A DNA stretch of 64,000 nt. It comes from Blastococcus mobilis. GTDB taxonomy: Bacteria; Actinomycetota; Actinomycetes; Mycobacteriales; Geodermatophilaceae. The DNA is taken from positions 248,001 through 312,000 of the forward strand of contig NZ_FZNO01000001.1 of the NCBI RefSeq assembly GCF_900188025.1, given 5' to 3'. Shown here piece by piece: positions 21,784-42,474 of this stretch (its first letter is position 1; each line of letters begins with the position of its first letter). The notes under the pieces were generated by a model. It did no database searches, was not told the origin of the DNA, and saw only the letters and a list, made by a program, of their open reading frames with translations. A program made the translations under genes and the position numbers.

Positions 21784-23148
21784 TCAGGCAAGGAGGCGCA
21801 GGAACGGCGGTCGCCGAGGGGCCGGCTTCGGGCGCGCCTCCTCGGCAGCCGGCCCCTTGCGCGCGGTGACGACGGGCTGGGGTGCCCCGGCAGCCCGCGC
21901 CTTCGCGGATTCCTTCGCCGCCCGCTCCGAGAGCTCCTTCCATGCGGCTCGCGCGGACGTACGCCCCGGCACGGTCCCGGCGGCGATCGCTCCGCTCACC
22001 AGGGCGGCCGCGAAGGAGCTGCCGCTCCACGTGGCGTAGCCCTCGAACGTCCGCACCTCGGGCTCTTCCTTCGTCTGCGCCTCGGGCGCTTCCTTCGTCC
22101 GTGCGTCGTCGGTGCGAACGGGGATGTCTCCGTGCAGGAAGGCGGAGGTGACCTTCACGCCGTTGGACCACACGTCGATCCAGGGAGCGTCGTCCGGTGT
22201 GAACTTCGCCGGCTTCCCCTCGTTGCCCGCCGCGCCGACGGCGATGACGTCGTCGAGTGCCGCCGGCCAGGCAGGCTTGTTCTTCTCCCAGGAACGCTTC
22301 TCCTTCTCCGGGTAACCGTGGTTGCCGGCGGCGGCCACCACCACGATGTCCGGGTCGAGGCGGTCGATCGCGGTGGCCAGGACCAGGGGCGGCTGGCCGT
22401 CCTCGGTGTAGCACACGATCGAGAGGTTGAGAACGTCCACGCCGGTCCTGCCGACCGCGACGATCTGCTTGGCGAGGTCCCAGGATTCGGCCGCACCGTC
22501 CTCCTCGCCCAGCACCTTCCGCACCTCGACCGTGCAGCCGGGCGCCATACTCAGCACGAGGCCGGTGACGAAGGTGCCATGGCAGCCGATCGAGGACTCG
22601 GGCTCATCATCCAGGAAGTCCGCAGGGGAACCGATGCAGCGTCCCTCGAGGTCCGGATGCGCGAACACCGCCGTGTCCAGCACCGCGACGCGGGCGCCGA
22701 GTCCCGGCCGATGGGCCATCCGCGGCCGCGGCCGCGGCCCCCCGGTCGGCGGTTCGGGGTCGGATTCGCCGCCGTGCCCGATCTGTCCCGTCTCTCCGGC
22801 ACCTTCGACGCGCCCGACCAGCCGGTTCTTCCCCAGGGTCGGGGTCCATCCCGCGTACCTGGCCGCGAAGTAGTCGCGCAGCGCCGTCAGGTCCCGGTCC
22901 AGGGCGGTCCGGGCATGCGGGGCCTGCTCCTGCTCGGTGCGCTCCTCGATCTTCGCCGCTATGCGGTTCGCTGTGTCCTCGTCGTTGAGTCGCAGGAGAG
23001 CCAGGCCGAGGTCGTCGCTGCGCTCGGCCTCGGTGAAGTCGACGCCGAGGTCCTCCAGCGTCGCGACGACGAGATCTGCGTGCTCGAGGGCCACGACGAG
23101 GTCCGCCGTCCTGTAGAAGGCGTTGCGTTCCCCCTGTGGCTCGCCCAT
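21784..23148 (-). CDS. Cytoplasmic S8 subtilisin-like protease, module B
   Basis: A 454-residue serine protease with Asp158 (VAVLDTAV), His190 (GCHGTFVTG), Asn276 (AAAGNHG) and Ser378 (WSGSSFAAAL). The usual GTSMA is GSSFA but the nucleophile is kept. The N-terminal 140 residues are helical and charged and not homologous by eye to module A. An insert rich in Lys, Glu and Pro (about residues 340-368) precedes the catalytic Ser, and a basic Ala/Pro tail of about 50 residues ends the protein. No signal peptide. The ATG at 23148 has a GGGGGG-type ribosome binding site. It is divergent from the second CHAT gene. Sequence distance from module A suggests an old duplication or separate acquisition. 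Confidence 0.92.
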   Translation of the reverse strand: MGEPQGERNAFYRTADLVVALEHADLVVATLEDLGVDFTEAERSDDLGLALLRLNDEDTANRIAAKIEERTEQEQAPHARTALDRDLTALRDYFAARYAGWTPTLGKNRLVGRVEGAGETGQIGHGGESDPEPPTGGPRPRPRMAHRPGLGARVAVLDTAVFAHPDLEGRCIGSPADFLDDEPESSIGCHGTFVTGLVLSMAPGCTVEVRKVLGEEDGAAESWDLAKQIVAVGRTGVDVLNLSIVCYTEDGQPPLVLATAIDRLDPDIVVVAAAGNHGYPEKEKRSWEKNKPAWPAALDDVIAVGAAGNEGKPAKFTPDDAPWIDVWSNGVKVTSAFLHGDIPVRTDDARTKEAPEAQTKEEPEVRTFEGYATWSGSSFAAALVSGAIAAGTVPGRTSARAAWKELSERAAKESAKARAAGAPQPVVTARKGPAAEEARPKPAPRRPPFLRLLA

Positions 23149-23271
23149 GACTGCCCCCTACGCCGGTGTGCCCGTTGAGTCAGCGAGTCTCGCGGTCCAT
23201 GGCACCTGGGCGGAATCACGGGGGCCGCGAAGCCGGTTGACTGACCCGTGCCGCGAGCGCACCGTCGTCAC

Positions 23272-25968
23272 ATGAGCTCCGTGGGTCACCTGCTCACGCA
23301 GGAAGCGCCCGACCCCGACGGAGAGCTGCGGGAATCGGCGGCCCGGGCGATGCAGCTGGCCGCCACCCGCCCGGAGGAGGCGCGTGCCATCGGCACGCCG
23401 GTGGTGGAGCCTGCTCGCCGGATGGGCGCCTGGCAGACGGTGAGCCTGGCCGAACGCGCCCTCGGGGTCGCGGCCATGAACCTCAACGAAATCGACGTGG
23501 CGGTGGCTCACCTGCGGGCGGCGGTGGCGGCGGGGGCGCGGGCCCGTTCCCGGGCCCGCACGGGAGAGGCACGGATGAGCCTGGCCTCGGCGCTCGTGCT
23601 GCGCGGGCAGGCCGGCCCGGCGATCCGCGAGATCGACGCGGCCGTCCGCGACCTCGAGGGAGTGCAGGCTGCCCGCGCGCGCGTCCAGCGGGCGGCGATC
23701 ATGCAGGAACTGGGAAAGGACGACGCCGCGCTCGAGGAGCTCCGCCGGACCCTACCGGTGCTCCGGCAGGCCGGCGAGATCGAGTGGGCTGTCCGCGCTC
23801 TCTCCAACCGCAGCCTGATCCACGCCGGGCGGCGTGCATTCGGGGCGGCTGAGGCGGACCTGCGCGACGCCCGTCGGCTCTCCCTCGATCATGATCTCGA
23901 CCTGTTGGTTGCGTTCGCCGAGCAGAACCTCGGTTGCGTCAAGGCCAAGCGGGGCGATGTGCCGGTCGCCTTGCGGCACTTCGACGCCGCCCAGGAGCGT
24001 TACCGGCGGTGCGGTGTGGTGCAGGCGTCGCTGCTGGTCGACAGGGCCGAGGTCCTGCTGTCCGTGCGACTGCTCGACGAGGCCCGGGAGACGGTCGAGG
24101 CCGCCGTGGTCGCCTACCAGCAACAGAAGCGCGACGTCCACCAGCCCGAGGCGCAGCTTCTGCTGTCGACCGTGGCTCTCGTCCAGGGGGACACGGTGAC
24201 CGCCGCCGCGAGCGCCGACGCCGCGGTGGCCGGCTTCCGCCGGCTGGGACGAGCGAACTCGCTGGCCCTGGCCCGGTTCGCCCGGCTGCAGGCCCAGGTG
24301 GCGGCCGACCCCCGGGGCATCAGCCCGGAGCGCGCGGCACGGGTCGCAGCGGACCTGGAGGCGGCCAGCTGGAAGGTTCCGGCTCTCGAGGCGCGCGTCC
24401 TGGCCGGCCGCATGGCCCTGGACCAGGGCCGCCCGGCCGTGGCACGCCACCATCTGTCGACGGCCAGCCGCGCCAGGCACGCCGGCCCCGCCGACGCTCG
24501 TGCCCGCGCATGGCACGCGGAGGCGCTGCTCCGCCGCGCCGACGGGCGCCGGACAGCCGCGTTGTCGGCGCTGCGGGCCGGGCTGCGCATCGTCGAGGAG
24601 TACCAGGCCACCCTGGGTGCGACCGAGCTCCGGGCGCACGTCAGCCTCCAGCGTGGGTCGATCGCCCGGGTGGGCCTGCGGATGGCGCTCGAGGGCCAGG
24701 ATCCGCGGGGCGTGCTCTGGTGGGCCGAACGCGGGCGCGCCAGTGCCCTGCGGCTTCGCCCTGCCCAGCCACCGGACCACCCGGAGCTCGCCCGCGACCT
24801 GGCGGACCTCCGGTCGACGATGGCGGAGATCGAAGCGGCCCGCGGGGAGGGCCGTTCCGACTACGCGCTGGTCGCCCGTCAGGTCGTGCTCGAGCGCCGC
24901 ATCCGCGACCGCTGTCGGACCCTCACGGCTGGTGACGACGGCGAGCGCCGGATGCGCCGGCACTCCGTGAGCGAGCTGACCGAACCCCTCGGCGACGCCG
25001 CTCTCGTGGAGTACGTCGAACTGGAGGGTGACCTCCACGCCGTCACGATCGCCGGTGGCCGCATCCGGATGCACTTCCTCGGCCGCACGGAGACGGTGCG
25101 ACAGGTGCTGACGCACGTGCCCTTCGCCCTGCACCGGCTGGTCAAGCCCCGGGCCGGCTCGGCGGGTCGGGAGGCCGGTCGGGAGGCCGCGGCCAAGGCG
25201 GTGCTCCAGCGGGCGGCGAGTGGCTTCGACGACCTGCTGCTGGGCCCTCTGCGGCGCGAGGTGGGAGATCGCCCGCTCGTCGTGGTCCCCACCGGTGCCC
25301 TGCAGTCGCTGCCCTGGTCGGTCCTGCCCTCCTGCCGGGGCCGGCCGGTGACCGTCAGTCCGTCGGCGACGATGTGGCACCAGGCGGTCAGCCGGCCCCG
25401 CCCGCCGGACGGCGCTCCGGTCGTCGTCGTGGCCGGTCCCGGCCTGCCGGGTGCGACGATCGAAGCCTCGGCCATCGCGGAGCTGTACCGCGGCTCCATC
25501 CTGCTGTCCGGCGCGGCGGCGACGGCCCCGAGGCTGACCGCGCACATGAACGGCGCCGCCGTGCTGCACCTGGCCGCCCACGGCAACATGCGCTCGGACA
25601 ACCCGTTGTTCTCGTCGCTGACGCTCGCGGACGGTCCGTTGACCGTGTACGAGCTGGAACGCCTGACCCACCCGCCCCATCACGTGATCCTGGCCGCCTG
25701 CGACACCGGTCGGCCGCACATCGTCGCCGGCGAGGAGCTGTTGGGCTTCGGCGCCGCACTGCTCGGCGGTGGTACCGCGACGCTGGTCGCGCCCGTCATG
25801 CCGGTACCGGACGCCGCGACGGTGCCGTTGATGCGGTCCTACCACGAGGGGCTGCGGACCGGTCGGTCGCCGGCCGAGGCACTCGCGGCCGCCCAGTCGG
25901 GGCTCGACGCCGAGGACACCGCCTCCCGAGCTGCCGCCGCAGCGTTCGTGTGCCTGGGGGCCGGGTAG
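23272..25968 (+). CDS. TPR-CHAT caspase-like protease, module B
   Basis: An 898-residue protein with TPR-like helical repeats over most of residues 20-560 and a C-terminal CHAT domain (about 610-898). The dyad is His770 in LHLAAHGNM and Cys810 in ILAACDTGRP. Block SDNPLFSSLTLADGPLTVYE is shared with the module A protein (SPLFSALHLDDGPLTVYD), while the TPR parts are weakly alike. The ATG at 23272 is chosen; a GTG at 23248 is possible, and neither has a clear ribosome binding site, so leaderless translation may apply. It is divergent from the S8 gene and convergent with the sigma factor gene. Predicted active cysteine protease; trigger and target unknown. Confidence 0.9.
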   Translation: MSSVGHLLTQEAPDPDGELRESAARAMQLAATRPEEARAIGTPVVEPARRMGAWQTVSLAERALGVAAMNLNEIDVAVAHLRAAVAAGARARSRARTGEARMSLASALVLRGQAGPAIREIDAAVRDLEGVQAARARVQRAAIMQELGKDDAALEELRRTLPVLRQAGEIEWAVRALSNRSLIHAGRRAFGAAEADLRDARRLSLDHDLDLLVAFAEQNLGCVKAKRGDVPVALRHFDAAQERYRRCGVVQASLLVDRAEVLLSVRLLDEARETVEAAVVAYQQQKRDVHQPEAQLLLSTVALVQGDTVTAAASADAAVAGFRRLGRANSLALARFARLQAQVAADPRGISPERAARVAADLEAASWKVPALEARVLAGRMALDQGRPAVARHHLSTASRARHAGPADARARAWHAEALLRRADGRRTAALSALRAGLRIVEEYQATLGATELRAHVSLQRGSIARVGLRMALEGQDPRGVLWWAERGRASALRLRPAQPPDHPELARDLADLRSTMAEIEAARGEGRSDYALVARQVVLERRIRDRCRTLTAGDDGERRMRRHSVSELTEPLGDAALVEYVELEGDLHAVTIAGGRIRMHFLGRTETVRQVLTHVPFALHRLVKPRAGSAGREAGREAAAKAVLQRAASGFDDLLLGPLRREVGDRPLVVVPTGALQSLPWSVLPSCRGRPVTVSPSATMWHQAVSRPRPPDGAPVVVVAGPGLPGATIEASAIAELYRGSILLSGAAATAPRLTAHMNGAAVLHLAAHGNMRSDNPLFSSLTLADGPLTVYELERLTHPPHHVILAACDTGRPHIVAGEELLGFGAALLGGGTATLVAPVMPVPDAATVPLMRSYHEGLRTGRSPAEALAAAQSGLDAEDTASRAAAAAFVCLGAG

Positions 25969-26002: not shown

Positions 26003-26578
26003 TCAGGCGTTGAGCAGCGCCTGAACGGCCTGGAAGGCGCGCACCCGGGAGAGGGCGCGGGCCCGAGTGGGTCCGATGCTCCCGATCGGGATGCCGAGGC
26101 GCCGGCTGATCTCGTCGTAGGACACGGGCGGGTCCTCGACGAGCAGCAGCAGCAGTGTCCGCTGCCGTTCCGGCAGCTCGGCCAGGGCCATGAGCAGCGC
26201 CTCGTGCCGCTCGGCCGCGAGCAGGTCGGAGTCCACGGCGGGCTCGCCGGCCCCGTCCGGCCACCCCTCCTCCCCGAGATCGGCCGGGGACACCAACCGC
26301 TGCTTCCTGATCACGTGCAGGCACTCGTTGCGCGTGGTCGTGACGATCCAGCCGGGCAGCGCCGCGGGTTCCCGGATGCCGCCGAGGTTCTCCACGAGCC
26401 GCAGCCACACGGTCTGGACCACGTCCTCGGCGTCACTGCCCTGCAGGCGGTGCCGGCGGACGACCGACAGCACCAGCGGCGTGTACCGGTCGACGAGGGC
26501 GTTCCAGGACGCGTGGTCACCGTCGAGAGCGGCGGCCACGAGCTGCGAGACCGGGTTCTCGTCTCCGTCGCGATCCAA
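26003..26578 (-). CDS. ECF-type RNA polymerase sigma factor
   Basis: A 191-residue sigma-70 family factor with region 2 (LVDRYTPLVLSVVRRHRLQG, then DAEDVVQTVWLRLVENL) and region 4 (LPERQRTLLLLLVEDPPVSY, then the helix-turn-helix DEISRRLGIPIGSIGPTRARAL). It would redirect RNA polymerase to a specific promoter set. The start codon is TTG at 26578, preceded by AGGGGGG, suggesting weak translation. No anti-sigma membrane protein lies next to it; instead there is a 68-residue helical protein upstream and a CHAT protease downstream. Control by proteolysis is a reasonable hypothesis. Whether it reads the GTATCA elements in this window is untested. Confidence 0.92.
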   Translation of the reverse strand: MDRDGDENPVSQLVAAALDGDHASWNALVDRYTPLVLSVVRRHRLQGSDAEDVVQTVWLRLVENLGGIREPAALPGWIVTTTRNECLHVIRKQRLVSPADLGEEGWPDGAGEPAVDSDLLAAERHEALLMALAELPERQRTLLLLLVEDPPVSYDEISRRLGIPIGSIGPTRARALSRVRAFQAVQALLNA

Positions 26579-28048: not shown

Positions 28049-30142
28049 TCAGGCCGGCAGGGCCAGGTCGGCCTCGCACCTGGCCCTCAGCGCGCGGATC
28101 GACTGGTGATCGGCGTCGGGATGTGCGACCGCCAGCTCGCAGTCGGCGATGGCCTCGCGCAGCCGGCCGGCCTCCCTGTAGGCCAGGGCCCGGTTCTCCC
28201 GGATGGCCGGGTCGTCGGTCAGCTCCAGGGCCGCGGTGAGGTCCTCGATCGACCCGGCGGTGTCGCCGTCCTCGAAGCGCAGGACCGCCCGATTGGCGAG
28301 GGCTTCGGCGAGGGCGGGGTCAAGGGCCAGGCACCGGTCCAGAGCTCCCAGCGCCGTCGCCCGGTCGCCCGACTCGAGGGCCACCAGGCCGCGCAGGCAC
28401 TGCAACTGCGCGGAGTCGGGACGCAGCCGGAGGCCCGCGGACACGTCGGCGTCGGCCCCTGCGACGTCACCGGTCTGCAGTCGGAGCGCCGCACGGTTGG
28501 CGAAGGCATCGACGAAGGTCGGCTCGAGCTCCAGCGCGTAGGAGAACTCGGAGATGGCCGTCTCCAGATCTCCCTGCTGTGCGGCGAGGTCCCCCCGGTT
28601 GTAGTGCGGCTCGGGATAGGGGGGACTCTCCGCGATGGCGGTCTCGTAGTCCCTGGCGGCCTCGTCGAGCCGGCCCATCCGCCGCAGCACCGAGGCGCGC
28701 TCGAAGTAGTACTCCGAGTGGTGCGGGTCCTCCGCTATGACCGCCCCGTACTCCGCGAGCGCCGCGTCGAGCGAACCCATCGCTGCGAGAAGCTGGGCCC
28801 GGTTGTAGGCCAGCACCGAACGGTGCTGGGTGTGCTGATCGGGGTCGACCTGCGCGTCCAGGCGCGCCATCCCGGCCTCGACCAGCCGGAGAGCCTCCTC
28901 CAGGTTGCCCAGGTGCATCTCCACCAGGGCCAGGCCGTTCTCGTTGAACGTCAGGTTGAAGGCACGCCGTTGTTCGTCCGGTAGCAGGGCCGAGATGCAG
29001 ATCGCGGTGTTGACCCACGACTTGGCCTTCGCGTGGTTGCGGCGCGCGTCGGTGTAGAACCGGGTCAACAGCATCGCCCGGCCGTACGCCGACTGCAGAT
29101 GGACGCTCGGGTCGGTGGTGGCGGCGCAGGCCTGGTCGTAGTAGGCCTCCGCCTCATCCGGACGCTCTAGGGCGGTCAGCGCCGTGGTCACCTTGGCGAC
29201 GACCAGCCAGCAGTCCGTGACGCGGGTCCGCCAGTCCAGGACAGCCAGGCAACGCGGAGCGAGATCTACGACGGCGTCGTAGAAGCCCTCCAGCACGCAG
29301 CGTTCGATCGCCTCGAGCAGCGCCTCCGCTCCGGCTCCGGCGGGGTCGCTGCCGCGCTCACGGTGGTAGGGGATGGCGCCCAGGGCCAGGCTGCTCGGGT
29401 CCACGCGCTCCAGCTCATCGGCCCGCGCGTCGTGCAGCGCGGCCCGGGTCGCCGGATCGGTCGCCTCGTACGCCGCGAGGAGCGCCGGGTCCCGCGACGT
29501 GCCGTCGCCGGAGACGTAGGCCGCGGCCAGGGTGGCTACATCCTGGGTCATCGGCCCCACGGACCGGTCGGCCGGCAGGTCGTGCCGATCGGTGAAGGCC
29601 CGCAGCGCGGCTCCGAGAGGTCCGGGGACGTCGGTACCACGGGTGTGCACCACCACGCGGAGGATCTGCGGATCCGTCCGGCGCAGCAGGATTCCCACCC
29701 ACTCCAGGTCGGTCATGTCTGCGTCGTCGACGTCGGTGAGCACGAGGCTGCGCGGGCTGCCGTGCAGCCGCGCGCACTTCCCGAGGAACTCCACCAGTCC
29801 GTGGGCCAGGCGAGTGGTCCGCCCCCCGGGGTAGAAGCGTGTCCGGTTGGTGGGGCTGGTCAGCGTGGTCAGGGTCGCCCGACGGTGGGGCAGGGCCGCC
29901 GCGAGCTGTGGAGCGACGGCGACCAGTTCGATGTCGTGGTGGCTCACGACGGCGGGGTTGTTCCGGAGCACCCAGGGGGTGACCGTCCGGACCACCTCCC
30001 CGGCCGCGGAGTAGGGGCCGCGGAGCCGTCGGTGGGCGCTGACCTCCGCCAGCGCCGGTGGCAGGGCGTGGACGGCGGACAGCGACCGCGCCGACGGGGC
30101 ATCGGGGCCGGTGACCCAGAGGTGGCGGGATGGCGACGTCAT
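28049..30142 (-). CDS. TPR protein with a degenerate NTPase-like N-terminus
   Basis: A 697-residue cytoplasmic protein. Residues 130-170 (SLVLTDVDDADMTDLEWVG, then RVVVHTRG) look like the Walker B and following strand of a STAND/AAA_16 regulator, but I see no P-loop in the 130 residues before it, where TGPDAPSARSLS occupies the expected place. From about residue 255 to the end there are tetratricopeptide repeats (AEYGAVIAEDPHHSEYYFER is one). It should therefore be a scaffold rather than an ATPase. The ATG at 30142 overlaps the protease stop (ATGA), so the two proteins are made together. It probably bridges components of the Cys-peptide system. Confidence 0.8.
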   Translation of the reverse strand: MTSPSRHLWVTGPDAPSARSLSAVHALPPALAEVSAHRRLRGPYSAAGEVVRTVTPWVLRNNPAVVSHHDIELVAVAPQLAAALPHRRATLTTLTSPTNRTRFYPGGRTTRLAHGLVEFLGKCARLHGSPRSLVLTDVDDADMTDLEWVGILLRRTDPQILRVVVHTRGTDVPGPLGAALRAFTDRHDLPADRSVGPMTQDVATLAAAYVSGDGTSRDPALLAAYEATDPATRAALHDARADELERVDPSSLALGAIPYHRERGSDPAGAGAEALLEAIERCVLEGFYDAVVDLAPRCLAVLDWRTRVTDCWLVVAKVTTALTALERPDEAEAYYDQACAATTDPSVHLQSAYGRAMLLTRFYTDARRNHAKAKSWVNTAICISALLPDEQRRAFNLTFNENGLALVEMHLGNLEEALRLVEAGMARLDAQVDPDQHTQHRSVLAYNRAQLLAAMGSLDAALAEYGAVIAEDPHHSEYYFERASVLRRMGRLDEAARDYETAIAESPPYPEPHYNRGDLAAQQGDLETAISEFSYALELEPTFVDAFANRAALRLQTGDVAGADADVSAGLRLRPDSAQLQCLRGLVALESGDRATALGALDRCLALDPALAEALANRAVLRFEDGDTAGSIEDLTAALELTDDPAIRENRALAYREAGRLREAIADCELAVAHPDADHQSIRALRARCEADLALPA

Positions 30143-31512
30143 GAGCTCTCCAAGGGGCGTGCGGCGGCGGACCAGGCTGCGGTACTGGGGGCGCCGGCGT
30201 ACGGCGCGGGGCGGAGGCGGCGCCCGGCACGGGGCCGGCGGACGCGGGGGGCGCGGTGGCGGGCTTGCCGCAGGATGCGTCGTCGGTCGCGCACCGCAAC
30301 GGCACCCGCCGCGCCCAGTTGGGCCGCGTTGAGCAGGAGCAGGAGGGCGGAGTCCCAGAGCTGCGCGGTCGACGACGACTGCCCGAGGAAGGCCCGCCCG
30401 AAGGCCTGCGAGAGGAACGTCCAGGCGACCGGGAGCATGACGACGACGAGCAGGCCGATGGCCAGGGTGTAGCCGACCACCACCAGCGGTGCGTACCAGC
30501 GGACCGCCCGACGGTCGCGCGGGTGCCACCGGTCCTCCGCCACCAGTCGGTGCGAGCGGCCGAGCCGTCGGTTCACGGCGTTGCGGAGGTACTCCCGTGC
30601 GACCGTGTGCAGGTCCACGCAGCCCAGGACGGTGGTCACCAGGTAGTACAGGTCGGTGCGGAGGAAGAAGTAGAGCTGCCAGGCCGCCCGCAGCAGGGTC
30701 GTGAGCGCCAGCGCCAGACAGACCCCGGCCAGCCAGCCGATCTCGGCGATTGGGCCACGGACCAGCCAGGCCGTGACGGTGAACGCGGCGGCCAGGACGA
30801 GGTCGGCGAGCAACCCCGCGAGCATCGGCAGGTAGCGCTGGGCGCGGGGGACCGCCACCAGCCCGTTCATCACCGTCTCGAAGACCACGAAGTAGAGCCG
30901 ACGGGACACGCGCAGCCGCGTGCGCAGACCCAGCCGGCGCCCCGCGAGCACATGGGCCAGCTCGTGCACGGCGACGAGCGGGAACGTGAGCACGAGCAGG
31001 CTCAGCTCGACGACGACGAGGGAGTCGCTGAAGAAGACGTGCTCGTGCCGGGGCGCGAGGCTCGGATCGGCGACGACGACGGCCACGCCGGCGATCAGCA
31101 CGGCGATGTAGACCACCCACGCCGGCCCGGAGAACACCGCAGCGCCGAGGCGCCTGTACCGCACGGCGGTCGGTCCTCCGGAGGCATCCGCGGGCGCGTC
31201 CGACCCCGCTCGAGCAGCGTCGGGAGCGTCCGACACGAGGTCCATCTCGCGCAGCGTGTCCAGGAATCCGTCGATGTCGACGGACTCGCCGAACTCGCGC
31301 GCGTACCAGTCCGCGGCCTCGGCGGGGTCGACGCCGTCGCACAGCCGGCGCAGGAGGGCTGCGCCGTCGGCCGGCAGCACGACGTAGGAGTCGGTGTCGG
31401 CTCGGCCCACGACGACGTCCTCGCCCTCGTCGAGGAACGTCAGCGACGGGAAGCGCAGTGGCCCGGGCGGACCCTCGCCTCGCTGGGACGCCCTGTCGCT
31501 GGCTACGGGCAT
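30139..31512 (-). CDS. Membrane M50-type metalloprotease with N-terminal PqqD-like domain
   Basis: A 457-residue protein. Residues 20-95 resemble a PqqD/RiPP-recognition winged helix (DSYVVLPADGAALLRRLCDG, then FLDTLREMDLV), the kind of domain that grips leader peptides. From about residue 125 there are multiple membrane helices. The zinc motif HELAH is at 183-187 and a second ligand candidate, Asp237, is in LAGLLADLVLA, as in site-2 proteases and the putative peptide zinc metalloproteases of peptide-modification clusters. The last 60 residues are a basic Arg/Pro/Ala tail. The ATG at 31512 is used. Its gene follows the Cys-rich peptide gene across a strong hairpin. Leader removal or export of that peptide is the natural inference. 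Confidence 0.82.
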   Translation of the reverse strand: MPVASDRASQRGEGPPGPLRFPSLTFLDEGEDVVVGRADTDSYVVLPADGAALLRRLCDGVDPAEAADWYAREFGESVDIDGFLDTLREMDLVSDAPDAARAGSDAPADASGGPTAVRYRRLGAAVFSGPAWVVYIAVLIAGVAVVVADPSLAPRHEHVFFSDSLVVVELSLLVLTFPLVAVHELAHVLAGRRLGLRTRLRVSRRLYFVVFETVMNGLVAVPRAQRYLPMLAGLLADLVLAAAFTVTAWLVRGPIAEIGWLAGVCLALALTTLLRAAWQLYFFLRTDLYYLVTTVLGCVDLHTVAREYLRNAVNRRLGRSHRLVAEDRWHPRDRRAVRWYAPLVVVGYTLAIGLLVVVMLPVAWTFLSQAFGRAFLGQSSSTAQLWDSALLLLLNAAQLGAAGAVAVRDRRRILRQARHRAPRVRRPRAGRRLRPAPYAGAPSTAAWSAAARPLESS

Positions 31513-31591: not shown

Positions 31592-31693
31592 TCACTGCAT
31601 GGCCACAGCGCCGCAGCAGCAGCAGCAGTAGCAGTAGCAGCCGCGGGCAGTGAGCCGGATCTCGCCGGCCTTACGAACCGGGATCTTCTTCAC
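31592..31693 (-). CDS. Cys-rich 33-residue peptide, candidate precursor
   Basis: Starts at GTG 31693 with a GAGAGGGGG ribosome binding site and ends at TGA 31592. The first 18 residues (MKKIPVRKAGEIRLTARG) are charged and leader-like. The last 15 (CYCYCCCCCGAVAMQ) hold seven Cys, five of them consecutive. The gene overlaps the last 23 bases of the flavin reductase gene and is followed by a strong hairpin and an M50 protease gene with a PqqD-like domain. This fits a ribosomally made, modified peptide; the Cys run recalls streptolysin-S-type cores, but no YcaO cyclodehydratase, radical SAM or lanthipeptide enzyme is in the window. The alternative is a metal-binding peptide. I know no family that matches it. 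Confidence 0.75.
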   Translation of the reverse strand: MKKIPVRKAGEIRLTARGCYCYCCCCCGAVAMQ

Positions 31694-32312
31694 GATGGGT
31701 CACCCCCTCTCCGGCGACCAGAGAGCCATCCGCGTGCAGCGGGCGGTACGTGCCGTCGAAGCGCACCAGTGGGGCCGCTGCGGGCCCGGTGCCGGCGTGC
31801 TCGACGGAGCCGACGACCAGCGCCTGAGGAGCGAGGTCGACGACGGAGTGCAGGCGGCAGTCCAGCCAGGCCGGCGCGCCGCACAGCAGAGGGGCGCCCG
31901 AGCCCGGGGCAGGCCACCAGAGTCCTGAGGGCAGGTGAGCCCAGCCGAGCCGGCGGCCCGGCACGGCGCAGCCCGACGCGACGGACTCCTGCTCGGCGGA
32001 CAGCAGGCTGACACCGAAGCCGCCGCCGCGCTCGATGAGGGCACGGGTGCGGCCACGGGCGGCAACGGTGACCTGCACCAGCGGGGGATCGACCGAGACG
32101 ACGCCGAACGTGGCGGCCGTGACCACGTGGACGGACTGACCGGCTGCGACCGAGAGGATGGTGACGGCCCGGGCGCACCGGCGGGCCGCTGCTGCCCAGG
32201 CGCCGCGTGCTGCCCCGTCGTCGGCGACGGCGTCGGCGACGACGGCGGTCACGGGAGACCCACGCCGGGTCGCGGGCGGTGCGCTCGGCGCACGGGACTG
32301 GTCACTCCACAC
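31671..32312 (-). CDS. Flavin reductase-like FMN-binding protein
   Basis: A 213-residue protein of the flavin reductase-like split-barrel family. The segment ARAVTILSV leads into VHVVTAATFGVVSVDPPLVQ, which matches the FMN-binding core (usually TANSFxSVSxxPPL), and SLLSAEQESVA continues the fold. Members reduce FMN with NAD(P)H or use bound FMN for oxidoreduction. The GTG at 32312 is taken; a second GTG at 32252 is an alternative because the first 20 residues are poorly ordered. A GTATCT sequence lies just upstream (32334-32339, minus strand). The 3' end overlaps the Cys-peptide gene. It might supply redox chemistry to the peptide's thiols or azolines, but that is inference. Confidence 0.85.
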   Translation of the reverse strand: MWSDQSRAPSAPPATRRGSPVTAVVADAVADDGAARGAWAAAARRCARAVTILSVAAGQSVHVVTAATFGVVSVDPPLVQVTVAARGRTRALIERGGGFGVSLLSAEQESVASGCAVPGRRLGWAHLPSGLWWPAPGSGAPLLCGAPAWLDCRLHSVVDLAPQALVVGSVEHAGTGPAAAPLVRFDGTYRPLHADGSLVAGEGVTHREEDPGS

Positions 32313-34681: not shown

Positions 34682-35365
34682 TCACGCCACACGCAGGCGT
34701 CGACCTATCGCCGAGTCGGTCTCCTGCTCGTAGAGGCGTTCGGCGTCGACATCGATCCCGCCCAGGTGCCCCGCCAACTCACGGCTCAGCACTCCGTGCA
34801 AGCGGGTCCAGAACGTCACGGATCGGCGCAGGGCCCGACTGGCACGCTGCGCTCGACCACAGTGGTCACAGTCGGGACGCCTGCCGATGAGGGCAGCCGT
34901 TCTCGCGGCCGCGGCAGCGTGCCGGGCCTCCAGCTCCAGGAAAGCGGAGAGCGCCGGCGTCAGGATCCGGTGCGTGAGGGTCGTGATCTCTGGCGGGACG
35001 GCGTAGCCAGGAAGGAACGTGCCGTGGGCGAGCAGGTAGCGATCGGGATGGGACGTGGCCCAGCGCCGGAACACCGCTGCGATGTGCCGCAGTCGGTCCT
35101 CGGGAAGATCGTCGGTCGAGACCGTGGCCTCGACGATCTCCGCCAGCTCCTGGTGCGTGGCGCGGATCAACGAGCTCAGCAGGTCGTCGCGGCTCGTGAA
35201 GTAGCGGTACAGCGCCGGCGCCGTCATCCCCATCTGCTTGGCGATGGCCCGGAGCGACACGGCCGAAGGCCCGGCCGCGGCGATCTGCTCCCACGCGTGA
35301 GCCTGGATCTCTGCCCGCACCTGCTCTCGGTGCCGTGCCCGCGCCCCGCCCGGCACATTCTCCAC
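34682..35365 (-). CDS. TetR family transcriptional regulator
   Basis: A 227-residue repressor-type protein. The N-terminal helix-turn-helix is VSLRAIAKQMGMTAPALYRY with YFTSRDDLLSSLI after it, the standard TetR pattern. The C-terminal ligand domain is not typical of ArpA-type gamma-butyrolactone receptors by eye and includes a CDHC pair of possible redox or metal relevance near residue 164. The GTG at 35365 follows AGGGAG by seven bases; a start at 35413 would add 16 residues without a signal. It is divergent from the dehydrogenase-like gene, and both have outward GTATCA elements. It may regulate this lipid/polyketide locus. Confidence 0.9.
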   Translation of the reverse strand: MENVPGGARARHREQVRAEIQAHAWEQIAAAGPSAVSLRAIAKQMGMTAPALYRYFTSRDDLLSSLIRATHQELAEIVEATVSTDDLPEDRLRHIAAVFRRWATSHPDRYLLAHGTFLPGYAVPPEITTLTHRILTPALSAFLELEARHAAAAARTAALIGRRPDCDHCGRAQRASRALRRSVTFWTRLHGVLSRELAGHLGGIDVDAERLYEQETDSAIGRRLRVA

Positions 35366-35501
35366 TGCGCGCTCCCTTGATCCCGGGTCGAGGGCACGGC
35401 GGTCGAGGCGCATCCGCCGAGATCGTCGTGGTCGACGGCGGAACAGCTCGGCACGTGCAGGCCCTGCTCAGCCACGGATGAGATGTCCGGTGGAGGGCTC
35501 C

Positions 35502-38122: not shown

Positions 38123-39556
38123 TCAGAGTGCATGGCCGAAGGAGAAGATGCCCGCCGGGTCGACTGCCGCCTTGAGCGCGCGCAGCCGCTCGACGGTGCT
38201 CAGTGGATAAGCCGCAGCCACCTCCTGCGGCCCGGAGACCCGACCCAGGAAGTTCAGCAGGGCCTCGGGCGCCTTCCAGGGCTGCATCGCGCCCAGCACG
38301 CCCTTCGCTGCGGCGGGGACGACCTGGGCCAGCTCGGGAGCGCCCGGGCCGATCACCAGCATCGCGAAGGCGGCGCCGCGACCAGGGACGGCGTTCGGCA
38401 CCTCGGGCTGGCGGGCCAGTTGGCCGCCCATCAGCCGGAGCTCCACGATCACGAGAGGAAGGTGGACCTGAGGGCCGGCCGCGGCCAGCAGCGCCTCGAC
38501 GGTCTCCTCGGTGACGTCCGACAGGAGCAGGCCCTTCTCCCAGGTGGCGAGAGGATCGACCGGGTCCATGTGGATGCTGTCCATGTCGGTGCTCCGGATG
38601 CGGCCGATGAGGTCGAGCAGGATCTCGCCGGCCGCTCGCATGGGGGCGACCAGCCGCTCGCCCTCTGCGAGGTCCGTCCCCGAGTACGTGTAGCGCAGGT
38701 GGAGCGCGGTCTGCCCGCGCAGCAGATCCGGCACGAATTCCAGGTCCGGGATGCGAATGATCGCGATCGAGGTGCTGACCTCCTCCGGGAGCGTGGGAGC
38801 CCACGAGCGGAAGGCGTGCAGCACCGGACCGGCGTCGGCGCCGCTGAAGAAGATGCCGCCGGCGTAGAGGTCGGCCACCGGCACCAGTTCCATCTCCAGC
38901 GCCGTCACGACGCCCAGGCTGCTCTTGGCGCCGCGGACGGCCCAGAACAGCTCGGGTTCGGATCCGGCGCAGACCCGGCGCAGCCGGCCGTCGGCGGTCA
39001 CGATCTCCACGGCGGTCACCAGGTCGGCGGCGAAGCCGTGCTGCCGGCCGAGGGGGCCGAGGCCACCGCCCAGGGTGTAACCGACGACACCGACGCCGGA
39101 CGACGAGCCGGACGGACCGGCCAGCCCGAACTCGGCTGCGGTCTGCAGCAACTGCTTCCACGTCACGCCCGCCTCGACGCGAGCGATCCGACGCTCGGGA
39201 TCGATCCGCACGCCCTGCATGCGCCGGGTGGTGATCAGCATCGAATCGGCGCCGGCGGGGACCGGGCCGTGGCCGGTGGCCTGGACGGCGACCCGCAGGC
39301 CGTGCGCGGCGGCCCAGGAGACGGCTGCGGCGACGTCGGCACCGCACGTGGCACCGACCGCGATCGCCGGGGTGTGCTGCGTCGCAAGGTTCCACGAGAC
39401 CACCTCGCCGGCGAGGCCGTCCTCACCGGCAGCGTAGACGGGCCCGTGGACGCTGCTGCGCAGCTCGTCGACGTCCGCGGTGGCGAAAGCCGGAGCCAGG
39501 GCGTCGTCGACGACGGTCAGGGGGTCGGGCTCACCGGCAAGGTCGCTGAGAGACAT
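38123..39556 (-). CDS. FAD-binding oxidoreductase (berberine-bridge/6-hydroxynicotine oxidase type)
   Basis: A 477-residue flavoprotein of the PCMH/FAD_binding_4 family. The FAD domain runs from about residue 55 to 215, with VQATGHGPVPAGADSMLITT holding the His/Gly loop and GPSGSSSGVGVVGYTLGGGL the second FAD-binding block. The C-terminal end (GIFSFGHAL) is like the berberine-bridge tail. Many relatives carry one or two covalent FAD links; GHG suggests the 8-alpha-histidyl link. They oxidise alcohols, amines or polyketide products with oxygen. The ATG at 39556 follows AAGGAAG. It is between pseudogene debris and a small membrane protein gene; a tailoring role for the PKS product is only possible by proximity. 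Confidence 0.9.
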   Translation of the reverse strand: MSLSDLAGEPDPLTVVDDALAPAFATADVDELRSSVHGPVYAAGEDGLAGEVVSWNLATQHTPAIAVGATCGADVAAAVSWAAAHGLRVAVQATGHGPVPAGADSMLITTRRMQGVRIDPERRIARVEAGVTWKQLLQTAAEFGLAGPSGSSSGVGVVGYTLGGGLGPLGRQHGFAADLVTAVEIVTADGRLRRVCAGSEPELFWAVRGAKSSLGVVTALEMELVPVADLYAGGIFFSGADAGPVLHAFRSWAPTLPEEVSTSIAIIRIPDLEFVPDLLRGQTALHLRYTYSGTDLAEGERLVAPMRAAGEILLDLIGRIRSTDMDSIHMDPVDPLATWEKGLLLSDVTEETVEALLAAAGPQVHLPLVIVELRLMGGQLARQPEVPNAVPGRGAAFAMLVIGPGAPELAQVVPAAAKGVLGAMQPWKAPEALLNFLGRVSGPQEVAAAYPLSTVERLRALKAAVDPAGIFSFGHAL

Positions 39557-39778
39557 GCTCACTTCCTTCTCGTGCTCCGCGGCCTCGCCGCGGCCTTGGA
39601 CAGGCGGCCACGGCCGCGCTCTCGACGACAGCAAGAGCCCCGGGCCGGGTGGCGAAATACGTCCAGCGGCCAGAACGGCGGCGGGGCTCCGGGATGCCGA
39701 CCTGTCGGCGGGGCCGCGGCGTCTCCCGGTGGACATCGAGCCGTACCGGCACGTCGAGGCAGGGCCTCGAGGACCGCG

Positions 39779-40709: not shown

Positions 40710-41750
40710 TCACGGGACGTGCAGGACGTCCAGCTCGGCGGTGACCACGGTCTCGCCCGTCTGCCGGAGGGTGATCTCCATGGGCAGGACGAGACCGGAT
40801 TCCCGGCGGAGCTCGGGAACACCTGGGACCACCTCCACGGTCACCGGCTGGGACAGCTCGGCGTAGGTGTGGAAGGAGGTGGCGCAACGGACGGTCAGCA
40901 GCTCGTCGGGTTCCACCGCCAGCAGGTGGGATCCCAGGGCGATCGCCGACTGGCGGCAGGCCTCGATCATGAGCATCCCCGGCACGTGGTCCTGCGGGTG
41001 GTCGAAGAAGTGCGGGTGCCCTGTGTCGACGAGGACGGTGAAGGTGTCCGGGGAACCGTCGGCTCCCGGCCGGCGCGCCGTGATCACGACGTTGCGAGGA
41101 TTCCGCCGGCCCACCAGCTCCGGCGGTGCAGGCACTCCCGATCCCGAGCCACCGCCGTCCTTCAGCGACACCGGTCGGACGGTGCGATAGGTACGGAGGG
41201 GCATCGCCAGCATCGACGCGGTGCTGCGGGCCGCCAGCTTCCCGTCGATGGTCATCTCGCCCTGTCCGGCGATGCGGACGGGGCCACTGTCGCGTCTGGC
41301 GTACTCCAGCAGCGTCATGTCGGCGACCAGCTGCGCGGGGACGGGGGAGACGCGGAGGGCTTCGGGATCGACGATCTGCACCTCGGCGTTCTGGAGGACG
41401 AACGCCATGTCGAGCGGGACGTCGAGGAAGCGGTGCGCGAGGAGGGTGCCGGCCTGCCGCGCGGCTTCGGTGACGACGAGGAGGTCGTGGAAGCGTCCGG
41501 GACCGTCGTTGAACAGCACATGGCTCCGCGGGATCTGTGCGGCCACGAGATACCGGTCGGCGCCCACGGGGGCGACGTCCGTGGGCAGCACCTCCGCGAC
41601 GGAGGCGCGGTGGGCGAGCCCGCGTGGGACGGGCGCGTCGAACCGCAGGGCGGCGCGTGCGGCGGCGACCGCGACCGCGACCTCGTCCTCGGCCGGCGCA
41701 CCGGGTGACCCCCCGGCGTGGGTCGCGGTCGGCGATGGTGCTGTCGTCAT
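40710..41750 (-). CDS. AfsA/ScbA-type hotdog protein
   Basis: A 346-residue protein with two AfsA hotdog repeats. The first holds PRSHVLFNDGPGRFHDLLVV (near residues 74-93) and the second HPHFFDHPQDHVPGMLMIEA (near 245-264). AfsA-type enzymes condense a beta-ketoacyl thioester with dihydroxyacetone phosphate in the first step of gamma-butyrolactone signal synthesis. The conserved Glu and Arg used in ScbA lie in the EAARQ and EACRQ segments in each repeat. The ATG at 41750 follows GGAAGGA. The gene follows a HAD phosphatase-like gene, a phosphopantetheinyl transferase and the synthase. It may take its acyl group from that synthase. No obvious ArpA-type receptor lies in the window. Confidence 0.85.
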   Translation of the reverse strand: MTTAPSPTATHAGGSPGAPAEDEVAVAVAAARAALRFDAPVPRGLAHRASVAEVLPTDVAPVGADRYLVAAQIPRSHVLFNDGPGRFHDLLVVTEAARQAGTLLAHRFLDVPLDMAFVLQNAEVQIVDPEALRVSPVPAQLVADMTLLEYARRDSGPVRIAGQGEMTIDGKLAARSTASMLAMPLRTYRTVRPVSLKDGGGSGSGVPAPPELVGRRNPRNVVITARRPGADGSPDTFTVLVDTGHPHFFDHPQDHVPGMLMIEACRQSAIALGSHLLAVEPDELLTVRCATSFHTYAELSQPVTVEVVPGVPELRRESGLVLPMEITLRQTGETVVTAELDVLHVP

Positions 41751-41802
41751 GCTCGTCCTTCCTGGGAGGGCTGTGGCCGGCCGCACGGACCCGGCGCGGT
41801 GC

Positions 41803-42474
41803 TCATGACCGTGCTGCCGTCGCAGGGCGGAGCGGCTGGTCGGCCAGCAGGGCCTCGATGCGCTCGACGGACGCCTCCGTGCTCTCGAAGAGGACGGAGC
41901 GCCAGCCAGCGGCCTCCGCGCCTGCGCAGTTCTCCGGCAGGTCGTCGACGAGGAGGCACTCGGCAGGGTCCGCGTGCACCCGCCGGGCGGCCAGCTCGAA
42001 GATCTCGGGGCTGGGCTTGCGGTGCCCCACCTCGCAGGAGTTCACGATGTCGTCGAAGAGGTCGTCGGCCGGGAGCATCGCGCGCCAGTAGGGCTCCCAC
42101 TCCCGGACGTTGTTCGTGAGCATGCCCACGAGGTAGCCGCGGCCGCGCAGGCCGATCAGGTAGTCGACGAAGGCCTGGTTGACGGGCCGGTCCCGGAACC
42201 ACAGCTCGCTGAAGCGCGTGAGGTCGTACTTCTGGCCGGACAGACCCTCGAGGGCGATGCCCATGCGCCGGCCCCATTCCGCCTCCGTCAGGTACCCCGT
42301 GTCCAAGGGAGCCATGACCGGCATCCCGAGCTCGTCGGCCACCTGCTGCATGGCGCTCAGGAAGTGAGAGCCCGAGATGCCGGTCCGCCCGGAGAACTCG
42401 CTGAAGGTGTCCGCGAGAGACGGGGTGAGCACCCCGCCGAAGTCGGACCAGACGACGCGTACAGGTGTGGGCAT
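41803..42474 (-). CDS. HAD superfamily hydrolase
   Basis: A 223-residue haloacid dehalogenase-like hydrolase of subfamily IA. Motif I is VWSDFGGVL (Asp11 as nucleophile), motif II is MLTNNVREW, motif III Lys is in GHRKPSPEIF and motif IV is LLVDDLPEN. The second Asp of the usual DxD is replaced by Gly, as in the soluble epoxide hydrolase N-terminal group and some phosphatases. The ATG at 42474 follows GAGGAG. It lies between the phosphopantetheinyl transferase and AfsA-type genes, 52 bases before the latter. Since AfsA-type products carry a phosphate that must be removed, a phosphatase role is plausible. Confidence 0.88.
   Translation of the reverse strand: MPTPVRVVWSDFGGVLTPSLADTFSEFSGRTGISGSHFLSAMQQVADELGMPVMAPLDTGYLTEAEWGRRMGIALEGLSGQKYDLTRFSELWFRDRPVNQAFVDYLIGLRGRGYLVGMLTNNVREWEPYWRAMLPADDLFDDIVNSCEVGHRKPSPEIFELAARRVHADPAECLLVDDLPENCAGAEAAGWRSVLFESTEASVERIEALLADQPLRPATAARS

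Follow-up and report, generated by a model that had tools for sequence, protein, structure and literature searches.

Related peptide systems and a cassette of Blastococcus mobilis

Among ribosomally synthesized and post-translationally modified peptides (RiPPs), daptides are made from MpaA precursors whose leaders are removed by MpaP, an intramembrane site-2 protease fused to a RiPP recognition element (RRE) (PMC10036551). In the epipeptide system of B. subtilis (EpeX/EpeE/EpeP), an M50 protease is thought to both cut and export the precursor (PMC10885120, PMC7614699). The locus described here is a compact, three-gene cassette for a short precursor peptide, an M50 protease with a probable N-terminal RRE (RRE-M50) and a STAND-like tetratricopeptide repeat (TPR) protein, located on the minus strand of a 64,000-nucleotide stretch of Blastococcus mobilis (NZ_FZNO01000001.1, positions 248,001 to 312,000; hereafter, the window). 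We consider it to be a RiPP-type peptide cassette in which recognition and cleavage of the leader would both fall to the RRE-M50 protein, and assign this reading a probability of about 0.68.

With daptides, the cassette shares a membrane site-2/M50 protease that probably also begins with an RRE, the presence of several short precursors next to that protease, and its occurrence in Actinomycetota (PMC10036551). It differs in that the daptide enzymes do not recur around it, and the daptide components given in the passages of PMC10036551 covered here include no STAND-like TPR protein. The daptide leader motif ELExMEAP occurs in none of the 96 different precursors collected here (0/96), and the invariant C-terminal Thr in one (1/96); lacking both the leader and the Thr rule, the family falls outside the daptides, which is why we treat it as its own RRE-M50 variant. 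An earlier note on this DNA, made from the sequence alone, had proposed a new maturase-free class: the lack of a recurring YcaO, radical S-adenosylmethionine (SAM) or lanthipeptide enzyme holds, whereas the RRE-M50 fusion is already known from daptides (PMC10036551). With epipeptides, the common feature is a small precursor beside an M50 membrane protease; their operon, however, contains a radical SAM epimerase and an ATP-binding cassette (ABC) transporter, neither of which is constant here (PMC10885120, PMC7614699). In the pearlins, the M50 proteases TglG and TmoG likewise act on a ribosomal peptide, but there a C-terminal amino acid is clipped from a reusable scaffold, and a PEARL-type enzyme does not recur in our loci (PMC10885120).

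Lasso peptides are set apart by their enzymes, since neither a B2 (transglutaminase-like) peptidase nor an Asn-synthetase-like cyclase was found among the window neighbours scanned with Pfam or among representatives of gene clusters present in at least five loci, and by the cores, which follow no ring-acceptor Asp/Glu rule (16/96). The resemblance lies in the N-terminal domain of the protease, for which TfuB1 and TbiB1, which we take to be lasso-peptide RREs, rank first and third in a profile search, and in one weak match (1/81 proteases) to the NCBIfam model lasso_PqqD_Strm (NF033530); the G...T spacing of the leader presumably also resembles that of lasso leaders. Membership of the streptolysin S family (TIGR03602) was rejected: the window peptide matched at E 0.0098 with 15.8 bits against a cut-off of 35, a match attributed to its Cys run, the other 16 of 17 precursors scanned with TIGR03602/NCBIfam were unmatched, and no YcaO protein was present among the neighbours tested.

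The RiPP trait of a conserved leader and a variable core encoded beside processing proteins is present. No description of this leader or cassette was recognised in the open-access literature searched, although papers may exist outside it, and the widespread family is apparently undescribed in the libraries and literature covered, in agreement with the earlier statement that no known family matches the precursor. On sequence grounds, we would file the cassette as a kind of RiPP locus that pairs an RRE-M50 protease with a STAND-like TPR protein, has Tyr and Cys in its cores and lacks any known maturase, and in which the chemistry of the core is predicted at most.

The precursor family and its partners

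The elements of the cassette, in window coordinates, are:

31703..31712, minus strand: Shine-Dalgarno-like motif GGAGAGGGGG, 9 nt 5' of the GTG start, compared with a family-wide control
31592..31693, minus strand: precursor peptide, 33 aa, one of 96 different family precursors, with a third-position entropy excess in the leader
31649-31693, minus strand: precursor leader M1-T15, conserved
31595-31648, minus strand: precursor core A16-Q33, variable
31592-31594, minus strand: precursor stop codon
30139..31512, minus strand: RRE-M50 intramembrane protease, 457 aa, with HExxH, an invariant Asp and six hydrophobic segments
31228..31461, minus strand: probable RRE (PqqD-like) domain at the protease N-terminus, spanning approximately residues 18-95, from profile matches
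30952-30966, minus strand: HELAH of the protease
28049..30142, minus strand: STAND-like TPR protein, 697 aa, TPR_2 E 1.2e-30, partner in 81/81 loci
29243-30142, minus strand: N-domain of the TPR protein, AAA_16-related, without Walker A, followed by TPR repeats
31671..32312, minus strand: flavin-reductase-like protein, 213 aa, PF01613 E 1.8e-24

The precursor open reading frame (ORF; 31592-31693, minus strand) runs from GTG to TGA and encodes MKKIPVRKAGEIRLTARGCYCYCCCCCGAVAMQ, 33 aa including 7 Cys. It shares 23 nt with the 3' end of the flavin-reductase-like ORF; the protease gene (30139-31512) comes next on the same strand, and the TPR gene (28049-30142) and the protease gene share 4 nt. The order reductase, precursor, protease, TPR looks like a single operon. 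Both the GTG-started, seven-Cys peptide with a ribosome binding site and the overlap with a reductase-like gene had been claimed before, and both are borne out, the former by the ORF itself, GGAGAGGGGG at 9 nt and homologues carrying the same leader. Pfam gave clear matches in the window for the reductase (PF01613) and for TPR_2 in the TPR protein, and none for the precursor; no Rfam family, promoter-like or terminator-like site was detected around the cassette genes.

Comparative analysis confirmed this 33-aa ORF as a genuine gene, one of a large family of precursors. Searched at the protein level, 98 relatives yielded two precursor homologues, both beside an M50/TPR pair, and 15 congeners yielded none. 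A scan of named genomes yielded 80 loci (81 with the window), and a larger set of 100 comprises the window and L035-L133; because several of these are one place seen twice (e.g. L041/L056, L037/L075), the 96 different precursors are the fairer count. They were collected with a strict leader pattern, whose only demand on the core is a length of 5-40 residues, in 99 of the 100 loci, the sole locus without a visible precursor being L070, whose contig begins inside the protease gene. A first leader pattern caught the precursor in 75 of the 80 named loci and a looser scan added four of the five misses, which carry variant leaders; the precursor adjoins the protease in 79/80, and also in the window. 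The TPR partner is present in 81/81 loci. Loss of the peptide where protease and TPR genes persist had been named beforehand as evidence against it; among the 81 loci with both, only the truncated L070 shows no precursor.

Precursor and protease also occur together across genomes. In 298 genomes of the order, the protease profile matched 34 at E <= 1e-30, of which 19 reached E <= 3.7e-113, with the next match at 4.8e-61; in an order sample of equal size (298), the precursor profile matched the same 19 genomes at E <= 8.1e-10, with the next at 1.4e-4. The thresholds for a close protease and a strong precursor were placed at these observed gaps in E-value. Ten more genomes gave precursor matches from 1.4e-4 to 0.0097, including G012, a congener, and G101, whose match lies beside a TPR relative, and in the deep relative G737 the precursor retains Tyr and Cys. 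The spread is patchy (at E <= 1e-70, 5/296 genomes of a class sample and 3/396 of a phylum sample, both counts including the window genome). The strict-pattern precursors, found in many soil bacteria, all come from Actinomycetota, among them Streptomyces, Kitasatospora, Lentzea, Nocardia, Streptosporangium and Micromonosporaceae, except for one locus in Chloroflexota (Ktedonobacter robiniae).

A Shine-Dalgarno-like motif precedes 77 of 89 precursors (those with ATG, GTG or TTG at the expected start) vs 846 of 3000 random start-like codons from the same loci, and stricter motifs precede 50/89 vs 112/3000. Leader nucleotide entropy at codon positions 1/2/3 is 0.59/0.34/0.95, and this third-position excess is a coding signature that indicates selection on the protein. 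At about 25-50 codons, the precursor genes are easily missed in annotation; since the Pfam/NCBIfam models tried do not name them, a leader profile would expose many peptide loci at once.

The conserved leader has a consensus of about (K/R)K-I-x-(V/I)-R-x-x-x-x-V-R-L-T (short form MKKIxVRKxGxVRLT). Its conserved part ends at Thr15 (RLT), short of the RLTARG boundary drawn in the earlier note. The core comprises 10-25 aa and is hypervariable; nevertheless, Tyr and Cys each occur one or more times in 96/96 strict-pattern cores. The first Tyr lies at position 7 after the leader Thr in 72/96, the nearest Cys ranges from -3 to +8 relative to Tyr, and 59/96 cores contain a single Cys. Tandem precursor arrays occur in L133 (ten), L047 (seven), L062 (three strict and one degenerate), L060 (two) and L059 (two), with similar leaders and, except in L059, mostly different cores.

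The Cys run of the window peptide had been singled out earlier; the family trait is instead Tyr plus at least one Cys, and the run is limited to one protease sub-branch. It is encoded by a run of TGC codons and its length may therefore drift by slippage. Three or more consecutive Cys occur in seven cores, including that of the window, all of them falling into a single clade of the midpoint-rooted protease tree (support 100/94), so that the run represents a genuine sub-family trait with one apparent origin and not a chance TGC repeat. The clade draws on Nocardia, Streptomyces, metagenome-assembled genomes (MAGs) of Frankiales/Frankiaceae, G088 and the window; it also holds L070 and L123, the latter with a core (YCYCNCSC) that we placed in the Cys-rich group. 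L070 is a contig from a MAG labelled Deltaproteobacteria that carries a protease-TPR pair.

The protease shows the traits of peptidase family M50, namely HExxH and a candidate third metal ligand within hydrophobic segments. HExxH is intact in 81/81 proteases, and the Asp of LAGxxxD, Asp237 in the window protein, is invariant and represents the candidate ligand; six hydrophobic segments are predicted, and HELAH follows the second. Its N-terminal ~100 residues resemble an RRE in sequence; each single match is weak, and it is their combination that makes the assignment likely. A profile of 44 protease N-termini searched against the PDB ranked TfuB1 first (E 0.012), a designed protein second (0.031) and TbiB1 third (0.049), all weak E-values, and Pfam PqqD (PF05402) matched 2/81 proteases at E <= 0.01 (best 7.4e-4). 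The earlier description of a neighbouring PqqD-M50 protease stands for HELAH and the RRE-like N-terminus, while "PqqD" is better replaced by a generic RRE in view of the top, if weak, PDB ranks.

The TPR protein reads as a STAND-type protein minus its P-loop. At E <= 0.1, AAA_16 (PF13191) matches the N-domain in 34 of the 44 relatives scanned, the best at 6.7e-6, with the window protein unmatched, and a Walker A P-loop was found in 0/80 TPR proteins. A P-loop-less STAND-like partner of this type would represent a novel kind of peptide-handling protein. Distance comparisons hint that it contacts the core: core and TPR distances correlate given the protease catalytic part, with a partial r of 0.36 for either TPR part (79 loci, 0/500 permutations) and of 0.28 and 0.32 in 42 dereplicated loci (0/1000 each), while the core against the catalytic part given both TPR parts gave about 0 (288/500; 79 loci). 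Core against RRE given the catalytic part gave 0.24 (42 dereplicated loci), and leader against RRE given the other parts was almost nil (0.06, 73/500). Shared ancestry can also produce correlations of this kind, so the core-TPR signal falls short of proof.

Proposed function and competing explanations

The precursor family, its constant partners, the constant Tyr and Cys and the intact HExxH are established, and they frame the following proposal. The RRE at the N-terminus of the protease would bind the MKKIxVRKxGxVRLT leader, and the M50 protease would cut the leader from the core, most likely directly after the conserved T-[SA]-A-A. The product, a peptide of about 7-22 residues containing Tyr and at least one Cys, would probably be released across the membrane. 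Handling of the precursor or core, by presentation, holding or modification, may be the task of the P-loop-less STAND-like TPR protein, and the flavin-reductase-like protein could act as an accessory redox partner that is dispensable in some lineages. Cys-Tyr or disulfide chemistry on the core is conceivable. The constant Tyr and Cys within otherwise free cores are a strong chemical clue to the question raised by this locus, namely which core residues are targeted by the precursor/RRE-protease/TPR trio without a classical maturase. A far bolder version, in which the core Tyr and Cys are joined into a macrocycle whose size is set by their variable spacing, by a machine composed only of the TPR protein and the RRE-protease, without a classical maturase, throughout Actinomycetota and reaching Chloroflexota, seems to us quite unlikely.

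The role of the reductase was assessed from its distribution. A homologue adjoins the cassette on the same strand in 36/81 loci, directly after the TPR gene in 33 and directly before the precursor in three (window, L086, L124); with L063 and L065, where it lies on the opposite strand, the total is 38/81. The window genome contains only four PF01613 genes in 5.1 Mb, which places this adjacency far above chance. With 36/81 on the same strand and 38/81 on either, a universal maturase function was rejected for the reductase. In the tree, the window reductase falls in an unresolved fork with two paralogues of its own genome, and its descent from the other cassette copies is no more than a possibility.

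Several observations weigh against the RiPP reading or parts of it. The window protease matches PF02163 (M50) at E 1e-4 with a score of 22.2, under the cut-off of 27.2, and PF05402 at E 0.16, also under its cut-off; family profiles give more support than the window protein alone for both M50 and PqqD/RRE, which is still modest. Of eight TPR proteins scanned singly, seven match AAA_16; every score stays under the Pfam cut-off, and the alignments begin no earlier than profile position 41. Core distances also track the catalytic part given the RRE (0.30, 0/1000) and, weakly, given the TPR repeats (0.16, 13/1000), both in the 42 dereplicated loci. The Tyr/Cys rule is broken by looser relatives outside the strict pattern or the locus set: the plasmid copy L171 and the fourth L062 copy have neither residue, while the G101 copy and the sister precursors of L024-L027 and L030 have Cys and no Tyr; these, together with L173 (Tyr and Cys), were left out of the 96/96 count. 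No maturase recurs around the 81 cassettes, as representatives of clusters of at least five loci included no YcaO, radical SAM, lanthipeptide or lasso enzyme, and no exporter or immunity gene is conserved in those clusters. Finally, the reductase was not found on either strand in 43/81 stretches, although in three of these the sequence stops no more than 600 nt from the TPR gene. Near-identical cores are seen both in loci with the reductase (L072-L074, L077) and in loci without one (L083, L085, L093, L104), which makes it accessory or replaceable.

The lack of a maturase, exporter or immunity gene would fit peptide signalling, in which the core is a pheromone freed by the M50 protease and the TPR protein is an intracellular receptor feeding nearby SARP-type regulators. 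The M50 protease Eep releases short signal peptides; the constant trio of precursor, protease and TPR protein and the core distances that track TPR distances beyond the protease catalytic part also suit such a role, as may BTAD/SARP-type regulators in the fetched flanks of 34/81 loci. However, Pfam matched no DNA-binding domain in the TPR protein, an RRE on the protease is a trait of RiPPs and is not known from Eep-type processing, and loci with seven and ten different cores would be odd for a single signal; we hold signalling to be unlikely. That the ORF arose by chance in the overlap of two real genes was suggested by its simple TGC run, its GTG start and the lack of a homologue in 15 congeners; this is already contradicted by the same leader in the same place in 79/80 named loci, the third-position variation, the Shine-Dalgarno-like motifs above control and the one-to-one co-occurrence of precursor and protease in 19/298 genomes, and is hardly credible.

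Two further explanations start from the residues of the core. A metal- or redox-active peptide, with a Cys run that coordinates metal (or heme) or engages in disulfides and that the reductase keeps reduced, would account for Cys in 96/96 cores, for the runs in seven cores of the window protease clade and for the adjacent reductase gene in 36/81 loci. Nevertheless, the single Cys of 59/96 cores could not supply a metallothionein-like ligand set, this reading offers no reason for the constant Tyr, and the reductase is missing in over half of the loci, making this role very improbable. About as little, or slightly less, can be said for a small-cofactor precursor, in which Tyr (and Cys) would be made into a cofactor and the remainder discarded. 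PQQ and mycofactocin are precedents for peptide-derived cofactors, and the near-fixed distance of Tyr from the leader (position 7 in 72/96), the RRE-like domain and the reductase neighbour in some loci point the same way; against it, the position of the nearest Cys relative to Tyr varies from -3 to +8, no radical SAM or other dedicated enzyme recurs, and the patchy spread (19/298 order genomes) and multi-core arrays are unsuited to a fixed cofactor.

Divergent relatives and gene neighbourhood

Besides the strict family, several divergent precursors were observed. A sister family, MKKLxVRxLExVKTSAAAxC..., is located upstream of distant RRE-M50 genes in L024, L025, L026, L027 and L030, with no convincing TPR match within the fetched stretches. 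The deep relative L173 bridges both families, having a sister-type leader but a Tyr/Cys core and a TPR partner. In G101 (L160/L172), the precursor-like MKKMTIRRTGALRLVSGARRLWIEWCW stands directly before a TPR relative, and no RRE-M50 was found in the 16 kb around it. In L171, on plasmid NZ_CP109482.1, the protease-TPR pair lies between transposase genes, accompanied by an annotated hypothetical protein of 57 aa whose C-terminal end consists of a variant leader followed by a core with neither Cys nor Tyr. L033 and L034 each have, near distant M50 frames of 800 aa, a short ORF ending in KLDxIEIRKLDKIETTALNSNPSG, possibly another precursor type.

Clustering of the genes called around the 81 cassettes recovered the protease in 71 loci, the TPR protein in 65, BTAD/SARP-type regulators in 34 (a label checked by Pfam on four representatives) and the reductase in 22 at that threshold. 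Other clusters of at least five loci, identified by Pfam from one representative each, comprise a response regulator, a helix-turn-helix (HTH) protein, two histidine kinases, an ABC ATPase, a DUF6545 protein, an amino acid permease and a major facilitator superfamily (MFS) transporter, as well as two without a Pfam match, one of which probably lies antisense to the TPR gene. A trio made up of an HTH-type gene, a DUF6545 gene and one unnamed gene recurs beside the cassette in the Streptomycetaceae loci L072, L073, L074, L077, L116, L118 and L132.

In the window itself, Pfam identified no YcaO, radical SAM, lanthipeptide or lasso enzyme among the nine neighbours examined. A PIG-L deacetylase was rejected as part of the cassette, since no ORF related to it turned up in any of the first set's 19 other loci, and an anti-phage system was likewise rejected (PADLOC, 0/4 window proteins at E <= 0.001). 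A TetR-type regulator is encoded at 34682-35413, and an AfsA-type (A-factor biosynthesis) gene and an FAD-binding oxidoreductase at 40710-41999 and 38123-39736, about 7-10 kb from the cassette. On the other side, a subtilase (S8) gene adjoins a CHAT-domain gene (21784-25968), with a sigma-70-family (ECF-like) gene close by at 26003-26578.
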